64,000 nt of DNA, taken from positions 248,001 through 312,000 of the forward strand of contig NZ_JACJPF010000098.1 in NCBI RefSeq assembly GCF_014695915.1, in the 5' to 3' direction. Both the position numbers and the translations under genes were made by a program. Origin of the DNA: Trichocoleus sp. FACHB-40 (GTDB lineage: Bacteria > Cyanobacteriota > Cyanobacteriia > Cyanobacteriales > FACHB-T130). Positions within the stretch are counted from its first letter, which is position 1. Each line of letters opens with the position of its first letter. Shown here in pieces: positions 10,490-29,050 of this stretch. The notes under the pieces are model-generated. The model did no database searches. It was not told where the DNA came from and worked only from the letters and a program-made list of their open reading frames with translations.

Positions 10490-10655
10490 TAAAAGGGTTG
10501 GCTTTGGTTCAAGGTTCGCCTGGGGTGTGCGAATCGAATCCTAGATTACAAAAGTCATGAATTATGGGTTTATAACTCCTCGCTTCCTAACTCCTTACTC
10601 TTAACTTTTAATAATTTAAGGCAAAGTTGCAATGAATAATCTTTTGATACACTGG

Positions 10656-11474
10656 TCAATTCTTTTGATATTGTTGTGTCTCTAGCTTTATGCGATGAGT
10701 GCTTCTCCAGCTTTGAGGAGTTGTCTCGTAAAATTGGCGAAATTGGCGGCTGAAATGGCCTGCGTCTTTATAGCCTACTGCTTCAGCAATTTGATTTACT
10801 GCCTGGTCAGTTTCTTGGAGTAAGAAAAGCGCCTGTGCCATCCGACGCTTGACAATCCAGCGGTATATGCTCTCTCCGGTATGTTGCCGCACTAAGCTAG
10901 TCAGGTAAGCCGGAGAGTAACCAAATGCCTGAGCCACATCACAGAGCGTAATCGATTGATGATAATTACTCTCAATAAAATTGAATATCTCAATCATTTG
11001 GGGACATTCAGGAAATATTGAGTGCGGAGAAGACGCGCTTGCAGTTTCAGTAGGCGGTGAATCTGATCGCTGGTTCTCAGATGAACTCCACTGTAGTAAG
11101 GTAGCTTGTTTTTTCAAACGGGTAGCGATCGCGCTCAGCAATTCCTCTCCCATACAAGGTTTAGTGAGATAGTCATCCGCTCCCAGTTCCATGCCTTTGC
11201 GGAGGTCAGGTCGTTCCCCCTTGCAACTGACAAAAATGAAAGGAATAATCGCTGTCAGGGGATCAGAGCGCAGCGTAGCTAGGACATCGTAACCATTGGC
11301 TTCCGGCATTACAATGTCGCAAATTATTAGGTCAGGTAGCTGTTTTTGTGCCTTTTGAATTCCCAATTTACCGTCTTCAGCATCAATAGTGTAGAAACCT
11401 CCAGCTTTAAGGCATTCTACAAAGAAATTTCGCGTTGGGGCATTATCCTCAATTACTAAAATTTTCTTCACCAT
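10656..11474 (-). CDS. response regulator with receiver and AraC-type DNA-binding domains
   Basis: 272 residues. The receiver domain spans about 1-120, with E9/D10, phosphoacceptor Asp53 in LIICDIVMP and the Lys in DYLTKPC near residue 105. An AraC/XylS helix-turn-helix pair spans about 165-265 (ITLCDVAQAFGYSPAYLTSLVRQHTGESIYRWIVKRRM split over two helices). Its gene heads the leftward ebo block and faces scyA. A two-component pair adjoins the scytonemin cluster in N. punctiforme, so this is the likely local regulator of scy/ebo (inference). Its partner kinase is not adjacent; the LOV kinase at 36088 is a candidate. Confidence 0.93.
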   Translation of the reverse strand: MVKKILVIEDNAPTRNFFVECLKAGGFYTIDAEDGKLGIQKAQKQLPDLIICDIVMPEANGYDVLATLRSDPLTAIIPFIFVSCKGERPDLRKGMELGADDYLTKPCMGEELLSAIATRLKKQATLLQWSSSENQRSDSPPTETASASSPHSIFPECPQMIEIFNFIESNYHQSITLCDVAQAFGYSPAYLTSLVRQHTGESIYRWIVKRRMAQALFLLQETDQAVNQIAEAVGYKDAGHFSRQFRQFYETTPQSWRSTHRIKLETQQYQKN

Positions 11475-12340
11475 TTTCCCTATTACTCAACACTTACGTA
11501 TGCGAACACATCCAGTTTCATTAAGTAAGAAGAGAGCTTGAATATTCAAAAAGTGCAATTTTGTAAAACCAATAACGCACTTCTAGTTTACCAAGCAAAT
11601 TATGGACTTCCCCTAATCAGGTTAAGCCCTTATTTTTACACAATTTTTTTTTTGCTGAATGAAACAAGATAAAGTTGCTTGGCGGAGGCTAGGTAGGTTT
11701 TAAATTAGGTTAATCTCTCCTCTACGAAAATTCTCTTTTTAATATTAATATTTGTAAATACTCCTAAAGATAGAGATAAAAAACATCGTGTGTTTATCTA
11801 TACAAGGCAAGTCAATAAAATATAAACTGATTAAATTCATAGGGCTTGAAGCCTTACGGTGAGCCAATTACAGCAATATCTGCGGCAATACTTACGTATA
11901 TATAAAGAACAAAATCGAAAGAATTGACAAATACATCAATAGATTGTTCATTGCAGCCCCCCCTTAAAGTTTTGTAAGCTTCTTCACAGGGAAGACCGAA
12001 CACGAAAGTGCTGTTAACTCAAATTTAATAATTAACAGAGTGAGCAAGCACTAAAAAACACAAAACAAACAAAGAAAACTTGTTGCGTTCTCATGAAAAA
12101 ATTAGGTTAGTGAATCTGACGCAACAGAAAGAACGTAGTTTAAGCCTATTAAAGCGCTTAACTTTAATTTAAGAATTTTAATCGGGCAGTCGAGGCATAA
12201 AGAGAAAGCACTCCTAGAGATTACATATTCTCGCTGCTACTGGGTGATGTTCAAGTTTTTAAGAAGCATACAGGGACTTGCTTCAACTGCCTAGAAGTAA
12301 TCGAAACCAAACGACCGAAAACTATATACCAACTTCTCCA
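11475..12340. promoter_or_regulatory. divergent regulatory region between response regulator/ebo and scyA
   Basis: About 866 bases without a recognisable gene, AT-rich in its middle. It must hold promoters for both directions. ACTTACGTAT occurs twice (11492-11501 and 11890-11899) and contains the palindrome TACGTA, so it is a candidate binding motif. A TTGACA at 11924-11929 resembles a -35 box, but its -10 (TTCATT, 17-base spacing) is weak. The rest shows no clear structure to me. Confidence 0.5.
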
Positions 12341-19443: not shown

Positions 19444-20604
19444 ATGGGATTACTAAAAAATCTTTCAATTGCCATTCTCAGTACCGGATTTATAGTTGCA
19501 GCAGCAGCTGAAGCCAAATCACTAACCTTAACCTACGAGCGTAGTATTGGCAGTCCTGGTTTCGGCCCTGGGCAGCTGTTTGTTCCCCAAGGCATAGCAG
19601 TGGATGCCGCCGGGAATACCCTCATAAGTAACGGTCGCGGTCTTAACCCAGACGGCAGTTTTAACCCAGACATCGGTAACAAAGTTGAAGTCTTCGACCC
19701 TCAAGGTAACTATATAGGAGCAATTGGCGAGGGCGGCAAAGGCCCCGGACAATTTGACGAGCCATCAGCTTTAGAAATTGATCCGGATACTGGGAATTTG
19801 TATGTAGGGGATGTTTTCAACAACCGCGTTAATGTCTACGATCCCCAAGGTAATTTTATTAACTCCTTTGGCTCATTTGCCGGACTCATACCGGGTAGGG
19901 CTTTCTTTGGCCCCTCTGGTGTGACATTCGACAAAGCTGGCAATGTGTATGTGGGTGATTTTAGCGGCGACAAGATCAACAAATACACTAAGGACGGCGA
20001 GCTAATCGGTTCCATTGGCAGCTCTGGAACCGAACCTGGGCAGTTCCAAGGGCCAGCAGGTTTGAGAATTTCCCCAGTTAGTGGAAATTTCTTTGTGAGT
20101 GACCAGTTTAACAACCGCGTTCAGGTACTCGATCCAGAAGGTAATCCTATCTTGACGTTTGGCAAACAAGGCACCGGGCCTGGAGAGTTTAATCAGCCAA
20201 TTGGCCTAGAAGTGGATGAGTTTGAGAATATTTATGTGGCTGATTCTATCAACAGCCGCGTTCAGGTATTCGATAAAAACGGTAACTTCCTCACTGCATT
20301 TGGTTCAGCTGTCGCAGCACCACCTCCCCAACTAGGTGAGCCACCTTTTGGCAATCCCCTCGACCTCTCACCAGGGAAATTTAACTGGACGGCTGGCACA
20401 AGCTACAAAGATGACAAACTCTATGTGGGCGATTTCTTCCAAGGTCGCGTCCAGGTGTTAAACATAGACAGAACCGCAGTACCTGAACCTTCCTCCGTAT
20501 TGAGTTTAGCGTTCCTGGGGATTGGAGCGGCGGCGACATTGAGAAAACGGCAACAAAAGTCAGTCATCGATTTGACAAGCGATCGCGATCGCACTGGTGT
20601 TTAG
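19444..20604 (+). CDS. scyF: ScyF, NHL-repeat protein with PEP-CTERM tail
   Basis: 386 residues. A signal peptide (LSIAILSTGFIVAAAAEAKS) is followed by at least five NHL repeats recognised by GPGQF(D/N)EP...GNIYVADSxNxRVQVFDxxGN-type spacing, so a six-bladed propeller is expected. It ends with VPEPSSVLSLAFLGIG and RKRQ, a PEP-CTERM tail. Role in scytonemin formation: periplasmic, exact reaction unknown. It stands about 100 bases after scyE and 133 bases before the repeat-protein gene. Confidence 0.93.
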   Translation: MGLLKNLSIAILSTGFIVAAAAEAKSLTLTYERSIGSPGFGPGQLFVPQGIAVDAAGNTLISNGRGLNPDGSFNPDIGNKVEVFDPQGNYIGAIGEGGKGPGQFDEPSALEIDPDTGNLYVGDVFNNRVNVYDPQGNFINSFGSFAGLIPGRAFFGPSGVTFDKAGNVYVGDFSGDKINKYTKDGELIGSIGSSGTEPGQFQGPAGLRISPVSGNFFVSDQFNNRVQVLDPEGNPILTFGKQGTGPGEFNQPIGLEVDEFENIYVADSINSRVQVFDKNGNFLTAFGSAVAAPPPQLGEPPFGNPLDLSPGKFNWTAGTSYKDDKLYVGDFFQGRVQVLNIDRTAVPEPSSVLSLAFLGIGAAATLRKRQQKSVIDLTSDRDRTGV

Positions 20605-20737
20605 CAACTAAACACGAGACAGAAGCGGGGAGTATTGAAAAACAAAAGACAAGCGTCATAAAGCAAGTGAAGGTTTGTCTTTTTGATGTTCCTCCGTCTC
20701 TAACAAATTTTTCCCTAAAATAAGAGGACTATTACTG

Positions 20738-22348
20738 ATGGACGCAAATGAATCCAGCGGTAGCAACCCGTTTGCTGGTGGCAACCCATCATCTACTGGT
20801 AACAGCAACCCAAACTCTAGTGGTGGCACCCTGCCTCGGCAATCACCCTTTGATCGGCTGTCTGTAGTTCTTGGTGATAACTCACCCTTTGGCGGAAGCG
20901 GTTCTCCTACAGGTGGTAACTCTTCCTTTAACGACCTACCCTATGGTGGCAACCCGTTTGCTGGTGACAATCTCTTCACTATCTTCGGTGGCGGTGCCAA
21001 CCCCCTGAGTCGTAGCAATTCATCTACTGGTGGAAGCAATCCCTTTGCTGGCGGCGGTAGTGGCGGCGGAAGCAATCCATTCGCTGGTGGTAGCGGCGGA
21101 AGTAACCCGTTTGCTGGCGGCGGTACTGGCGGCGGAAGCAACCCGTTTGCTGGTGGCGGTACTGGCGGTGGAAGCAATCCGTTCGCTGGCGGCAGTAGTG
21201 GTGGCGGAAGCAATCCTTTTGCTGGTGGCGGTGGAAGTAACCCGTTTGCTGGTGGCGGTACTGGCGGTGGAAGCAATCCGTTCGCTGGCGGCAGTAGTGG
21301 TGGCGGAAGCAACCCGTTTGCTGGCGGCGGTAGTGGCGGTGGAAGTAACCCGTTTGCTGGTGGCGGCGGAAGCAATCCGTTCGCTGGTGGCGGCGGAAGC
21401 AATCCGTTCGCTGGTGGCGGCGGAAGTAACCCGTTTGCTGGCGGCGGTAGTGGCGGAAGTAATCCTTTCGCTGGCGGTGGTAGTGGCGGCGGAAGCAATC
21501 CTTTTGCTGGTGGCGGTAGTGGCGGAAGTAATCCATTCGCTGGCGGTGGAAGCAATCCATTCGCTGGTGGTGGTAGTGGCGGCGGAAGCAATCCATTCGC
21601 TGGTGGCGGTAGTGGCGGAAGTAACCCGTTTGCTGGTGGCGGTGACGTATCGTTCAATAGTAGTAACGCACCCATTGGGAATGGTAACAGGGACATCGGA
21701 AGCGATAACGCAACCATCGGCAATGGTAACTCGGACTTCAGTAGCGACAACGCAACCATTGGTAATGGTAATTGGCAATTTGGAAGCGATAACGCAACCA
21801 TCGGTAATGGTAACTGGCATTGGGACTTCAGCAGCGACAATGCAACCATTGGCAATGGCAATTGGTATTTAGACTACGTTAGCGATAACGCAACCTTGGG
21901 TAATGGTAATTGGCACTTCGGAAGCAATAACTCAACTATCGGTAACGGTAACTGGGACTTCGGAAGTAACAACACGGTCATTGGGAATGGCAATTGGCTG
22001 TTCACCAGTAATAACACAGTCGTTGGTAATGGCAACTGGCTAGTTGATGGTGACAACATCACCAGCCCGGAGACATTATTGCCAGAGATAAAGACTACTG
22101 TTGACGACTTGATTAACTCCCTCATGGGCAGGATTGGTGAAGACTTTATTGGGTTAACAGGCAATTTAGGGGAATCGGAAAGTCAGACGTTTAACCGGCT
22201 CATCCTTGCCAAAGATACTGGTACTAATGACGGTAATGTTCAGTCTGTACCTGAGCCTGGATTTTCTACACCGCTGGTAGTGCTGGGGCTCTCATTTTTA
22301 CTGTATTCAAGGTTCAAAAAGCGGAGTAGACAGAAGCTTAGCGTCTGA
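20738..22348 (+). CDS. glycine-rich NPFAG-repeat protein with N-x-x-I-G-N-G-N-W array and PEP-CTERM tail (unrecognised family)
   Basis: I do not recognise a family for this 536-residue protein. Residues 1-95 are Ser/Gly/Asn-rich, with two loose NPFAG copies. About 97-303 is an array of 19 SNPFAGG units separated by Gly/Ser/Thr linkers of 1-5 residues. About 304-440 has nine repeats, mostly of 14 residues, with consensus N-A-T-I-G-N-G-N-W-x-F-x-S-D, which could form a beta-solenoid. A short helical segment with Ser/Glu follows. The end is VPEPG, a hydrophobic stretch and a basic KKRSRQK tail, as in PEP-CTERM proteins. No signal peptide is visible, and the upstream frame closes at a TGA with no better start. 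AGAGGA precedes the ATG. It lies inside the scy-trp run, so a role in the sunscreen or its matrix is plausible but unproven. Confidence 0.85.
   Translation: MDANESSGSNPFAGGNPSSTGNSNPNSSGGTLPRQSPFDRLSVVLGDNSPFGGSGSPTGGNSSFNDLPYGGNPFAGDNLFTIFGGGANPLSRSNSSTGGSNPFAGGGSGGGSNPFAGGSGGSNPFAGGGTGGGSNPFAGGGTGGGSNPFAGGSSGGGSNPFAGGGGSNPFAGGGTGGGSNPFAGGSSGGGSNPFAGGGSGGGSNPFAGGGGSNPFAGGGGSNPFAGGGGSNPFAGGGSGGSNPFAGGGSGGGSNPFAGGGSGGSNPFAGGGSNPFAGGGSGGGSNPFAGGGSGGSNPFAGGGDVSFNSSNAPIGNGNRDIGSDNATIGNGNSDFSSDNATIGNGNWQFGSDNATIGNGNWHWDFSSDNATIGNGNWYLDYVSDNATLGNGNWHFGSNNSTIGNGNWDFGSNNTVIGNGNWLFTSNNTVVGNGNWLVDGDNITSPETLLPEIKTTVDDLINSLMGRIGEDFIGLTGNLGESESQTFNRLILAKDTGTNDGNVQSVPEPGFSTPLVVLGLSFLLYSRFKKRSRQKLSV
21036..21645 (+). 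repeat. tandem repeat coding for SNPFAGG units
   Basis: Nineteen units of about 27-36 bases share GG(A)AG(C/T)AA(T/C)CC(N)TT(C/T)GCTGG. The units differ mainly at synonymous third positions (AACCCGTTT, AATCCGTTC, AATCCATTC, AATCCTTTT). That suggests the peptide, not the DNA, has been kept. Confidence 0.9.
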
Positions 22349-22385: not shown

Positions 22386-22412
22386 CTCAACCCCCTTTTA
22401 AAGGGGGTTGAG
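22386..22412 (+). terminator. hairpin between the repeat protein and trpE
   Basis: Arms CTCAACCCCCTTT and AAAGGGGGTTGAG are perfectly complementary over 13 bases with a 1-base centre. No long T-run follows, so it may be a repeat of the C/G-tract class rather than a strong terminator. Confidence 0.5.
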
Positions 22413-22568: not shown

Positions 22569-24839
22569 ATGTTTTTTGATTCCCACAGCTATATAACCAG
22601 AGGCGGCGTTCACATAACTCGTTCCATAATCGAGATTTCAATGGAAACTGCCATTGAAGAGATTTTGGGACGCATTAATTCTCAGCGAGGAGGTTTGCTT
22701 GCAAGCAGCTACGAATACCCAGGAAGATACAAGAGATGGGCTATAGGTTTTGTTAATCCACCCTTGGAACTCGCTACACGCGATCGCTCTTTCACTCTGA
22801 CAGCACTTAACGAGCGCGGGGTGGTGCTTTTGGCTTATTTGGCAGAGCGTTTAAAGTCGCGATCGCAACTTCAGGAAATCACTCTGGAAAAGTATTTTAT
22901 CACTGGTTCTATAAAACCAACAGAAGAATCTTTCCCCGAAGAAGAGCGCAGCAAGCAACCTTCTGTCTTCACTATTGTTCGCGATATTCTACATTCTTTT
23001 TACAGCATTGAAGACGAGCATCTGGGGTTATATGGCGCGTTTGGCTACGACTTAGTATATCAGTTTGAGTCAGTTTCCCAGCTTCAAGAACGTCCAGCAG
23101 ATCAGCGGGATTTGGTGCTATATCTGCCTGATGAATTGACGATAGTTGACTACTACCTTCAGAGCGCATATCGTATCCAATATGAATTTGATACTGTGCA
23201 TGGCAATACCAATGGTTTACCTCGTACAGGTGAGGTAATTGATTACAAAGGTAAATGTCTTACCCGCAATCAAATATCTGACCATGCCCCCGGAGAATAC
23301 GCCAACCAAGTTAACAAAGCGCTTGATTACTTCAAAAGAGGCGATTTGTTTGAGGTCGTTCCCAGTCAAAGCTTTTTTGAAGTATGCGAAACCTCCCCTG
23401 CTAAACTTTTCCAAACATTAAAGCAGATAAATCCTAGTCCCTATGGATTCATCTTTAATTTAGGTGGGGAATATCTGATTGGTGCATCTCCAGAGATGTT
23501 TGTGCGTGTTGAAGGAAGGCGCATTGAAACGTGTCCGATCAGCGGTACTATCGTGCGCGGACAAGATGCTATTGATGACGCGGATCGCATTCGTCAGTTA
23601 CTCAATTCCCGCAAGGATGAATCTGAGTTAACAATGTGTACTGATGTCGATCGTAATGACAAATCCCGCATTTGCGAACCTGGATCAGTAAGAGTAATTG
23701 GTCGCCGCCAAATTGAGTTATACAGTCACTTGATCCATACAGTAGATCATGTTGAAGGAATATTACGACCTGAGTTTGATGCTTTGGATGCCTTTTTAAG
23801 TCATACTTGGGCAGTGACGGTGACGGGCGCTCCAAAACGGGCAGCAATGCAGTTTATTGAACAGCACGAACGTAGCGCCCGACGTTGGTATGGCGGGGCC
23901 GTTGGATGCTTAACTTTTAATGGCAATCTGAACACTGGCTTAATTCTGCGGACTATGCGTTTGAAAGATGCGATCGCAGAAGTTCGAGTTGGTGCTACTG
24001 TCCTTTATGACTCGGTTCCAGAAGCGGAAGAACGGGAAACTCTCACTAAGGCAGAAGCTCTTTTTCAAACAATTCGCCAAGCTAAACAAACGAGTGTTGA
24101 AGTTCTGCCAAATAGTTCGGTAGTTGGCGAGGGGAAAGTTCGTTTTGGAGAAAACAAGCGAGTCTTATTAATTGACTATGAAGACTCGTTTGTGCATACC
24201 CTTGCTAACTACATCCGCCAGACTGGTGCTACAGTCACAACGCTACGTCATGGGTTTTCAGAAGAAATTCTTGATAGTAATCCAGACTTGGTTGTTTTAT
24301 CTCCTGGCCCTGGCAGACCCAGTGAATTTCATGTACCAGAAATGGTAAAAGCTTGCGTACAGCGACAAATTCCCATCTTCGGAGTTTGTTTAGGGTTGCA
24401 AGGAATTGTTGAAGCTTTCGGGGGTGAACTGGGAGTTCTCAACTATCCACAACATGGTAAGTCATCGCGTGTTTTTGTCACAGATTCAGAATCGGGTCTT
24501 TTCCAAAACTTACCGCAATCTTTTGAAGTCGGTAGATATCACTCATTGTTTGCTCTGCAAGATTTATTGCCTGAAGAACTGAAAGTTACAGCTATTTCCC
24601 ATGATGATGTGATTATGGGAATTGAGCATAAGATACTCCCAATCGCCGCAGTCCAGTTTCACCCAGAATCTATCATGACGCTTGGTGGAGAAGTTGGTCT
24701 GGCGATTATTATCAACGCGATCCGTACCTATGCAAAAGGTAGTGATTCTTCAAATCTGGTGGAAGAGAAGATGACTGTTCAGGAAAATCTGGATGGGAAT
24801 TCGCAAATTAATTCCGACTTTTCCACTGTCCGACATTAA
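22569..24839 (+). CDS. trpE: fused anthranilate synthase TrpE-TrpG
   Basis: 756-residue single-chain anthranilate synthase. The TrpE (chorismate-binding) part occupies about 1-510, with [23 protein letters not shown] and [11 protein letters not shown] segments. The TrpG amidotransferase part occupies about 530-730, with catalytic Cys in FGVCLGLQG and His/Glu in VQFHPES. It makes anthranilate from chorismate and glutamine, and here probably serves scytonemin-directed tryptophan supply. Fused TrpEG next to scy genes is also found in N. punctiforme. The ATG at 22569 opens [14 protein letters not shown]; a later in-frame ATG (METAIEE, codon 25) is less likely. Confidence 0.95.
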
Positions 24840-27757: not shown

Positions 27758-27793
27758 TTGGCGGTGAGGAAGTTAACCGAAAGCGAAAAAAAC

Positions 27794-29050
27794 ATGGGAT
27801 TTTTGCATAAATCTGTTAAAATATTAAGCTTTGGTATAGCTGTTAGCTTGTTCGGTATGGAAGCGATCGCAGCTGACCTAGTTGTTAGAAAAAACGTGGT
27901 TGACCTTACTTCTGAGGAAAAAAACAACTTCGTTAACGCTATCAAAACTTTAAAAACCACAATTCCAGAAGGCAGCGCTCTCAATATTTACGACCAGTTT
28001 GTTGCCGTACATCTGGGAGCCATGAGCGTAATCCATTGGCATGAAGAACATCAGCATCATCATATTGATACTGCTCATGAAAATTCAGGATTTCTGCCGT
28101 GGCATCGCGAATATGTACGCAGATTTGAACGAGCCTTACAATCAGTAGACCCAAGCGTAACGGTTCCCTACTGGGATTGGACAGATCCTACAGCCCTTGA
28201 CGTTATCTTCCAACCCGATTTTATGGGGTCAAATGGTCAAGGCGTAACTATCAATATCCCAGGCGCGGGAGCTTTTGAAGGAGGCCCGGTTGTATCCGGT
28301 AATTTCTCAGAAGCTAGTGGATGGGTTCTGAACAAAGACTTACATATCGATCCATCTACAAACCAATCGTTGGGTACGTCACTCTTACGTTTTCTGCAAG
28401 TACCTCCTGCTACTGATTACCCAATACCTAAAGCAGAGATAGATCGAATTCTTGCCCTCGATGATTACCAAATTTTTCGTCCTGCTTTAGAAGGATTTAT
28501 TTCTTTTGATAAAGACGGTAATGTAATTAATGGAGGCTTTGCTCATAACTATATTCATGGCTTAGTCGGTGGGGTTCGTATTGATTTAACTACGAACCGA
28601 CCCACGTTCCAGCCTATAGGAACGATGAGCAACATCCCCAGTTCTGTAAACGATCCAGTATTTTGGCTAAATCATTCTAATGTGGATCGTCTCTGGGCTG
28701 AGTGGCAGGATAATGGACATGAAGGAAGCGATTTTTATCCTTCGGAAGGTCAGCCTTATGGACACAATCTCAACGATCCAATGTGGCCTTGGGATGGAGG
28801 TATGTCCACTCCAGCGAGTAAAGGGCTAGGAGATTTACTATCCCTATTACCAGTTTTTGACTCTGATGATATTGTCACGCCCGCAGACGTTTTAGATTAC
28901 CGGAAAATGGGCTACACCTATGACACTACTTCAGCTTCGGTTCCGGAACCGACTTCTACATTAGGTTTATTAGGTCTAGGTCTTTTGGGTATAAGTTCTC
29001 TTTCCAAGCACAAAAAGAAACAGAAAACATTGACTATTAGTAATGGCTAA
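27794..29050 (+). CDS. tyrP: exported copper tyrosinase with PEP-CTERM tail
   Basis: 418 residues from ATG 27794, where a signal peptide begins (ILSFGIAVSLFGMEAIAA). An in-frame TTG at 27758 would put 12 charged residues before it and is unlikely. Copper-site segments are HWHEEHQHHHIDTAHENSG with FLPWHREYVRRFE (CuA) and NYIHGLVGG with DPVFWLNHSNVDRLW (CuB). The C-terminus VPEPTSTLGLLGLGLLG plus KHKKKQK is a clear PEP-CTERM tail. A tyrosinase gene occupies the same place between trpA and trpB in Nostoc; it may oxidise the phenolic part or drive dimerisation, which is not proven. Confidence 0.93.
   Translation: MGFLHKSVKILSFGIAVSLFGMEAIAADLVVRKNVVDLTSEEKNNFVNAIKTLKTTIPEGSALNIYDQFVAVHLGAMSVIHWHEEHQHHHIDTAHENSGFLPWHREYVRRFERALQSVDPSVTVPYWDWTDPTALDVIFQPDFMGSNGQGVTINIPGAGAFEGGPVVSGNFSEASGWVLNKDLHIDPSTNQSLGTSLLRFLQVPPATDYPIPKAEIDRILALDDYQIFRPALEGFISFDKDGNVINGGFAHNYIHGLVGGVRIDLTTNRPTFQPIGTMSNIPSSVNDPVFWLNHSNVDRLWAEWQDNGHEGSDFYPSEGQPYGHNLNDPMWPWDGGMSTPASKGLGDLLSLLPVFDSDDIVTPADVLDYRKMGYTYDTTSASVPEPTSTLGLLGLGLLGISSLSKHKKKQKTLTISNG

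Follow-up and report, generated by a model that had tools for sequence, protein, structure and literature searches.

Several cyanobacterial genes have been linked to the production of the sunscreen pigment scytonemin. The ebo genes lie within the scytonemin (scy) operon in most cyanobacteria and distal to it in Nostoc punctiforme; they are reported to be widespread beyond scytonemin and to act in precursor transport (PMC6282210). Cyanoexosortase B has been described as required for scytonemin in N. punctiforme (PMC12188702), and the response regulator Npun_F1278 has been reported to be essential for scytonemin (in a paper cited by PMC8879130). According to earlier work, it is undefined how scytonemin crosses the outer membrane and unclear what ScyD and ScyF do (PMC12188702, PMC4870267), and heterologous production is described as so far ending at the monomer (PMC12188702). 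Here, a further gene is described, provisionally named scyX, an open reading frame (ORF) in a stretch of 64,000 nucleotides of Trichocoleus sp. FACHB-40 (contig NZ_JACJPF010000098.1, positions 248,001 to 312,000; this whole stretch is called the window). The initial annotation of the window had described scyX as an unrecognised gene tied to scytonemin, in frame between scyF and trpE on the same strand, and the ORF coordinates bear this placement out (Table 1). Judging from co-occurrence, genomic position and a shared upstream element, ScyX is very probably a member of the scytonemin regulon. No description of the ScyX family or of this 21-bp (base pair) element was found in the titles and abstract openings of the open-licence PMC literature.

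ScyX occurs together with scytonemin genes. In a first search of 60 relatives, seven matched, and apart from the window's own genome one match was strong: G047 (genomes are given G numbers and loci L numbers), in which two tandem ScyX proteins of 191 and 346 residues lie between scyF and eboA. Alignments of the conserved N-terminal module (A1) and of the repeat block (A2) were then searched against 388 genomes of the order, and a sample of 358 genomes of the phylum was also searched. The order searches scored limited first-look candidates (e.g., 14 for A1, 8 for A2 and 4 for scyF), and misses are possible. A1 was found in 43 and A2 in 56 of the 388 genomes, all 43 A1 genomes being positive for A2 as well. 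The scyF model (NF035926) scored above its cut-off in 40 genomes, and the overlap with A1 was 35, or 35/43 ScyX genomes and 35/40 scyF genomes. The Fisher p values of 1e-36 by genome and 6e-20 by genus overstate independence because the genomes are related; the count by genus is safer, with ScyX in 19 of the 20 scyF genera and in 3 of the 129 others. Eight ScyX genomes had no scyF above cut-off (G134, G144, G174, G237, G247, G248, G353 and G375). Scy genes lie on the same piece as ScyX in seven of these, and G247, a 6.3-kb (kilobase) contig of a genome that is 65% complete, shows eboA-C. The tie to scytonemin is thus upheld: all of the 43/388 carriers have scyF or adjacent scy or ebo genes, and homologues common in genomes lacking scy genes, which the initial annotation had named as the finding that would count against it, were not seen. 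In the phylum sample, ScyX was found in 9/358 genomes, all of them within the 10 with scyF at an expectation value (E) of at most 1e-40 (9 above cut-off); G065 carries ScyX with scyF below cut-off. A2 was found without A1 in 13 of the 56 genomes. Two of these matches were strong, G291 (2.9e-30, truncated, no scyF above cut-off) and G065 (3.4e-14), and the remaining 11 were weak, with E between 1.1e-7 and 6.5e-6; in 9 of these, the best match contained stops. The family gave no match among plasmid records. At locus L176 (G375), a ScyX pair lies beside a partial scy cluster (scyC, eboE, trpD, aroG) with no scyF above cut-off, perhaps a cluster in decay.

Where ScyX is linked to the cluster, three arrangements recur. 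It lies directly after scyF in the window and in G060, G047, G185, G205, G225, G092 and G164. It adjoins scyA, separated from it by no more than two small ORFs, in G134, G295, G300, G237, G312, G342, G174, G353, G306 and G144. Lastly, it lies 3' of aromatic-enzyme genes in G305, G329, G173, G160, G360, G196, G147, G264, G355, G375, G369, G297, G277 and G352; some of these have additional ORFs in between or have ScyX on the opposite strand. Scanning named genomes yielded 43 loci, including Microseira wollei, Aliterella atlantica, Chroococcus, Rivularia, Richelia, Plectonema, Scytonema, Rhizonema and 27 loci titled Nostoc; in 25 of the 27, no scy-cluster gene was seen in the flanking sequence, which spanned up to 10 kb, the exceptions being L215 and L225. 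Some further observations concern these neighbourhoods. ScyX paralogs of 305-478 residues with GNGNW repeats, and no scy gene recognised alongside, were seen at L195 (G346), L198 (G264), L199 (G239), L200 (G387), L201 (G160) and L202 (G355). No eboA was recognised between ScyX and eboB in L203 or L204. In G357, a pentapeptide-repeat protein (L067:4471-5328, minus strand) with a signal segment and a PEP-like tail lies between eboF and ScyX.

ScyX and scyA also share a candidate upstream element. The scyA upstream regions of the window and 13 other genomes were shown to contain ATCAAAAGATTTTTSATTG, with 16-19 of 19 positions matched in 14/14 and a mean of about 12.5 in shuffled sequence. The same sequence, at 16 or more of the 19 positions, precedes the A1 genes of ScyX at 35 of 36 distinct loci. 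It is the second half-site of a direct repeat, ATCNAAANATTTGACA-N5-ATCAAAAGATT, for which 21 bp was the best spacing in 59 of 64 distinct sites, and the half-sites matched with a mean of 13.7 as against 6.7 in shuffles. A weight matrix built from the 14 scyA sites was used to scan 149 loci (2.5 million bp, duplicates removed) that had been chosen around scy and ScyX genes, so the resulting 160 hits are enriched by design: 87 lie before ScyX, 32 before scyA, 20 before trpE, 4 before scyB and one each before scyC and eboA (the window's own), while 15 have none of these within 800 bp. Among the 113 hits of at least 20 bits, only one had no such gene within that distance. A pattern scan of 40 whole genomes offers a fairer test. 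Its eight controls lacked scyF above cut-off and ScyX, the two genes by which they were chosen, scyA-C not being sought in them. With at most one mismatch, 121 hits were obtained versus 9 for the reversed pattern. The 38 exact matches lie before scyA (19, of which 17 were checked in the DNA and those of G343 and G375 placed by spacing), before ScyX (13), at ebo (3) and in other places (3), with none in the controls. Of the three ebo matches, two precede eboA, in the window's own genome (G000) and in G060, and the third, in G377, precedes a gene close to ebo. The scan covered 27 of the 43 ScyX genomes, and 16 of these have a box with no more than one mismatch in the 600 bp upstream of a ScyX gene. 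The window's scyX lies within the operon and has no box of its own. The shared candidate box predicts that ScyX is co-induced with the scy genes.

The gene of a response regulator with an AraC-type helix-turn-helix domain sits between the two box copies of the window, and this regulator may be the protein that reads the box. A dimer of the AraC type would fit direct repeats that are two helical turns apart. Divergent to scyA in G228 lie genes for a PAS kinase and a regulator of the AraC type. The box also precedes an acyl-CoA-dehydrogenase-like gene near ebo in G239 and G377 and, at 857 bp, a glycosyltransferase gene in one genome. In seven Nostoc-group genomes, G239 and G377 among them, no box was found within 450 bp before the distal eboA.

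The initial annotation had counted 19 SNPFAGG units plus two looser copies in ScyX. This was close; the exact count is 20 SNPFAGG and one GNPFAGD, for an NPFAG total of 21. Its proposal that the synonymous differences between units reflect selection on the peptide is well borne out, since the six-residue cores of the 21 units differ almost solely at synonymous positions (0.52 synonymous versus 0.0086 non-synonymous per site). The array is also beyond chance, because 21 of the 26 matches to a degenerate NPFAG codon pattern in the genome fall in the scyX ORF (5 elsewhere) and the reversed control gave none. The ortholog in G060, a genome of the same species, occupies the equivalent place (L058:6780-8783) and encodes 667 residues with 32 NPFAG units instead of 21; from the GNGN repeats through the stop, the two genes differ at 13/711 bases. 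Several features come in addition to those of the initial annotation: the A1 module, nine GNGN repeats (seven of them IGNGN), a helical segment, a PEP-CTERM-like tail and the lack of a signal peptide. The commoner form of A1 in the family is LLRQSPFGPLxDIxGVDGxxDIFGN...SPYGGNPFAGDNFWNxFAGGVNP. The array varies across species, and by sequence and model it is the A1 module and the predicted beta-roll of the GNGN repeats that define the family. Often these are two tandem genes, one for an A1 protein and one for a beta-roll protein with a helical tail, which are fused in the window. A Gly-rich arm is present in 98 of 144 members, with 32% Gly, 12.5% Ser, 9.3% each of Asn and Pro, 7% Phe and 1.3% Lys plus Arg. 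Its motif varies (NPFAG, NPFGG, NPIAG, PSFGG, GFGG) while its kind is constant, which fits selection for cohesion and not for exact shape. The ScyX family has no Pfam or NCBIfam model of its own: the window protein matched no Pfam family, autotransporter anchors included, and no NCBIfam model, NF033206 and NF035926 included, at E<=0.1. A role of the NPF motif as a ligand of EH domains was considered and dropped, that system being eukaryotic.

The GNGN block was modelled with AlphaFold2 (residues 303-499; 23 sequences from the window and the named loci). The model is a beta-roll of eight strands of at least three residues with a helical end, at a mean predicted local distance difference test (pLDDT) of 86.5 and a predicted template modelling score (pTM) of 0.82; of the five models, two scored lower (69.7 and 52.7). 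Among solved structures, the ryegrass ice-binding protein 3ult_A came first (Z 16.3, root-mean-square deviation 1.0 over 112 residues, 28% identity). It is followed by the heads of UspA1, AtaA, CbpF and YadA (3pr7, 3wp8 and 1p9h among the YadA-like ones) at Z 12.5-14.4, and VIA Z values of 12.2-16.3 span 3ult and several YadA-like heads. Ice-binding and YadA-head rolls are left-handed with 14-residue coils. By sequence the relation is faint. The best Foldseek E for the model was just 2.1e-3, the Pfam model LbR_Ice_bind gave non-significant values of 0.016 in one of the 23 members and 0.024 in one full protein, and no beta-roll turned up when PDB sequences were searched by profile. The PDB relatives that did appear were single chance-level matches (E 0.84 and 0.91) and were not found credible. 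For the A1 module, no fold was accepted, its model being too poor (pLDDT 63.4, pTM 0.33).

The candidate box also leads to other genes. In seven genomes of the genus g87 (Nostoc), a one-mismatch box of the scy type, ATCTAAAGATTTTTCATTG, lies about 210-240 bp upstream of a gene for a second repeat protein without a signal peptide, here called Y (109-178 residues; NLSDPFAPGGAFGIP followed by SFDPSKYGIPTEG-like GIP repeats). The loci are L324, L325, L326, L327, L337, L338 and L339, in G264, G239, G355, G382, G326, G373 and G343, respectively. Two of the seven Y proteins were scanned against Pfam and matched no family. Each of the four sampled Nostoc-group genomes with scyF and no ScyX (G382, G326, G373, G343) carries Y, and no Y was seen among the boxes of the fifth such genome, G228. 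The presence of Y where ScyX is missing would fit a replacement. A protein of 214-216 residues with a signal segment and a PEP-like tail lies 66-227 bp behind a box in G387, G239 and G355, and in G387 it is followed by a ScyD paralog (54.6% identity).

What might ScyX do? It is probably structural and not enzymatic, as the initial annotation had proposed, a proposal supported by the low-complexity Gly/Phe arm, the predicted beta-roll and the lack of an enzyme domain. The reading we tentatively prefer, with somewhat less than even confidence, is that ScyX is a dedicated structural protein that would form a cohesive layer of the envelope ordering scytonemin or its precursors. The AraC-type response regulator would switch on ScyX together with the pigment genes under ultraviolet-A (UV-A) light. 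The nearly uncharged Gly/Ser arm with its evenly spaced Phe would act as a sticker-and-spacer chain and provide cohesion, and the rigid beta-roll would present a flat repetitive face that binds polysaccharide or pigment. The C-terminal tail would anchor ScyX at the cytoplasmic membrane and, given its resemblance to PEP-CTERM, might pass ScyX on to an exosortase. Together, these parts would build the cohesive layer, in which scytonemin or its precursors are held or ordered.

A number of observations weigh against this reading. ScyX is not obligatory, as it is missing from 5 of the 40 scyF genomes (G373, G228, G382, G326, G343); when these were searched again with every candidate scored, A1 did not appear at E<=1 and the A2 matches were weak (best 2.2e-5). 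The genes listed for the N. punctiforme cluster of 18 genes also do not include ScyX, unless it corresponds to the unknown NpR1259, the last gene of that cluster (PMC2726228). The box is missing within 600 bp of ScyX in 11 of the 27 scanned genomes; in five of these, ScyX lies directly behind scyF, and in the other six it does not (G160, G196, G147, G300, G312, G369). The eight control genomes contained 12 one-mismatch boxes in all. By hydropathy, the only measure used for signal peptides, no N-terminal stretch exceeds the limit in 139 of the 144 members, and the other five begin upstream of the conserved start, so that a signal peptide at the conserved start is found in 0/144. The same test shows N-terminal hydrophobic segments in ScyD, ScyE, ScyF and TyrP. 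The tail of the window protein matched neither PF07589 nor TIGR02595 at E<=0.1, and 60 of 65 A1-only members have no C-terminal hydrophobic segment.

These last points bear on the compartment of ScyX. Ordinary Sec export is argued against by the absence of a signal peptide in the 144 members sampled, and for the same reason ScyX was rejected as a plain PEP-CTERM export substrate. A hidden leader was also rejected: the (K)IGGLILM that can be read in frame above many starts corresponds to ribosome-site sequence, and in-frame stops upstream of the start are common among the members. In the window, the open frame above the ATG spans only 17 codons (553 versus 536). The absence of a signal peptide and the lack of a hydrophobic end in most A1-only members hint at the cytoplasm. 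An envelope location is hinted at by the PEP-CTERM-like tail, the exosortases of the genome (three PF09721 matches above cut-off in G000) and the exosortase requirement of scytonemin. An ending in P-E/D/T-P followed by 12-45 residues was found in 33 of 144 members. TIGR02595 scored above its cut-off in three of seven ScyX relatives (both Aliterella proteins and the 191-residue protein of G047), just missed it in the 346-residue partner (15.5 versus 16) and did not match the three further relatives. On balance, a place in the envelope or outside the cell is slightly favoured over the cytoplasm. Separately, the Microseira wollei ScyX (L203:9905-10945) ends just short of a PEP tail that is present in a close relative (L204:924-2012).

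A cytoplasmic location would suit a different role, which seems possible though doubtful. Here, ScyX would be a tail-anchored scaffold, a condensate or mesh that lines the cytoplasmic membrane from within and brings ScyA-C together with the dedicated aromatic enzymes and the Ebo export machinery, so that the monomer is produced right beside its exporter. The lack of signal peptides in the family and of hydrophobic ends in most A1-only partners would be expected of such a scaffold; ScyX genes adjoin aromatic-enzyme or ebo genes in many genomes, and the short A1 motif SPFGxLLDIxGVDGxxDIFGN, for which no confident fold was obtained, could be a docking motif. The family's P-E/D/T-P endings and TIGR02595 matches speak against it, as do the nearest solved beta-rolls, which are an ice-binding protein and adhesin heads. 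Furthermore, under the positive-inside rule, a hydrophobic segment followed by basic residues would tend to place the C-terminus in the cytoplasm and thereby the N-terminus outside. Alternatively, ScyX might not act on the pigment at all and might instead be a protectant, induced with scytonemin by sun and drying, that acts on water, ice or polysaccharide. The ryegrass ice-binding protein as nearest solved fold and the boxes before the glycosyltransferase gene and before Y would agree with this role, but a general protectant would be expected also in relatives without scy genes, whereas ScyX occurs with scy or ebo genes and inside scy operons; we consider it unlikely. That ScyX is a dispensable low-complexity passenger, kept by linkage and with no function of its own, is highly improbable. 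The differing NPFAG counts of two genomes of one species and the five scyF genomes without ScyX could be taken that way, but the repeat core shows a strong synonymous excess, the A1 and beta-roll modules are conserved across families of the order, and ScyX has its own box at unlinked loci.

The preferred reading of a cohesive envelope layer can be carried one step further, to a view that we hold to be rather unlikely. The sunscreen may have a protein half: cohesive repeat proteins without signal peptides (ScyX and, in Nostoc, also Y) would be induced together with the pigment through the 21-bp direct-repeat element, leave the cytoplasm by a non-Sec route and form the sheath matrix for scytonemin. 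Such a half would have been overlooked because work on the pathway followed the enzymes.

In the window, scyX starts 133 bp past the end of scyF and ends 220 bp before the mechanical start of the downstream ORF, which we take to be trpE from its position and sequence. The good ribosome site of the initial annotation was found as AAGAGGA, and sequences like AATAGGAGGATTAATCCTA-ATG precede many starts in the family, with a Shine-Dalgarno-like 4-5-mer in 109/144 members. Around the ORF, 6 promoter-like sequences were found (3.8 in shuffles) and 3 terminator-like ones (4.2 in shuffles). An inverted repeat, CTCAACCCCCTTTTAAAGGGGGTTGAG, lies at 22386-22412 between scyX and trpE with no T run behind it, and may be a mobile short repeat or a messenger RNA hairpin. 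Among the neighbours, ScyD and ScyE matched NF033206 (399.7 and 371.7 bits, cut-off 80) and ScyF matched NF035926 (627.6 bits, cut-off 350). The gene at 27758-29050 matched Pfam Tyrosinase; its PEP-CTERM tail scores above the Pfam cut-off (22.7 versus 20.7 bits), and similar tails occur on ScyD, ScyE, ScyF and ScyX.

Table 1. Coordinates of scyX, its predicted parts, its neighbours and the candidate regulatory elements (window positions unless a locus is named; aa, amino acids).
Feature	Position	Strand	Evidence
scyX (provisional name), ORF of 536 aa, ATG start	20738..22348	+	ORF list; G060 ortholog at equivalent place
Shine-Dalgarno AAGAGGA, 9 nucleotides before the scyX ATG	20722..20728	+	Sequence reading
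Conserved N-terminal module A1, aa ~30-92, window form RQSPF...LPYGGNPFAGDNLFTIFGGGANP	20825..21013	+	Alignments A1, A4; match at G000:C125:268825-269013
SNPFAGG/Gly-Ser array, 19 units, aa ~99-302	21032..21643	+	Tandem Repeats Finder (TRF), period 36; unit count
GNGN repeat block, period ~14-16 aa, predicted beta-roll	21680..22063	+	AlphaFold model, structural comparison
Predicted helical segment, family-conserved	22079..22222	+	Alignment, AlphaFold model
PEP-CTERM-like tail VPEPGFSTPLVVLGLSFLLYSRFKKRSRQKLSV (VPEP, hydrophobic stretch, basic end)	22247..22345	+	Sequence reading
scyF, upstream neighbour	19444..20604	+	NF035926, 627.6 bits
Presumed trpE, downstream neighbour, mechanical start	22569..24839	+	ORF list; name from position and sequence
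Candidate scy box upstream of scyA, ATCGAAAGAATTGACA-N5-ATCAATAGATTGTTCATTG, 21-bp direct repeat	11914..11953	+	Upstream comparison, pattern scan
Candidate scy box upstream of eboA, ATCAAAAGAATTGACC-N5-ATCAAAAGATTATTCATTG, 159 bp before eboA	10630..10669	-	Matrix and pattern scan
Response regulator with AraC-type helix-turn-helix, candidate reader of the box	10656..11474	-	Pfam PF00072, PF12833, PF00165 above cut-off
Box-linked protein of 214-216 aa	L322:2917-3561; L328:3832-4476; L333:2989-3639	-; +; -	Box scan

A family that tracks the scy genes, lies in their operon and often shares their candidate operator would give a direct handle on the path of scytonemin across the outer membrane. The candidate operator itself outlines a regulon that can be put to the test, and Npun_F1278 is likely to bind to this DNA. 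If the proposed role is true, ScyX would be a candidate for the missing component of heterologous scytonemin production.

How does ScyX compare with known systems? The Lolium perenne ice-binding protein 3ult and the YadA-like heads have the beta-roll fold in common with the ScyX model, but they show no significant profile relation to it, and the window ScyX has no Pfam autotransporter anchor; the common fold shows no shared function. The arm resembles FG-repeat and silk-like low-complexity proteins in being likewise Gly-rich and nearly uncharged with evenly spaced Phe, an analogy for which no homology is claimed. Overall, ScyX would act in the manner of a low-complexity matrix or scaffold protein to which a beta-roll is joined. 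The described substrates of the PEP-CTERM/exosortase system (PMC1569441) and ScyX have in common a body without known homology and the presence of exosortases in the genome. By reading of the sequence, ScyX also appears to have their PEP motif, hydrophobic segment and basic end, but by hydropathy it has no signal peptide. ScyD, ScyE and ScyF (NF033206, NF035926) belong to the same operon and have PEP-CTERM-like C-termini and repeats (NHL in ScyF) as ScyX does; they are unrelated to it by these models, and their N-terminal hydrophobic segments are missing in ScyX. The ebo genes are widespread beyond scytonemin and act in precursor transport, whereas ScyX was seen only with scy or ebo genes in the sampled genomes and carries no transporter or enzyme domain. 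Like ScyX, the ebo genes were noticed by gene neighbourhood, and in the window a candidate box precedes eboA. Their position also behaves like that of ScyX, which is unlinked in most Nostoc loci: the ebo genes lie within the operon in most cyanobacteria and distal to it in N. punctiforme.

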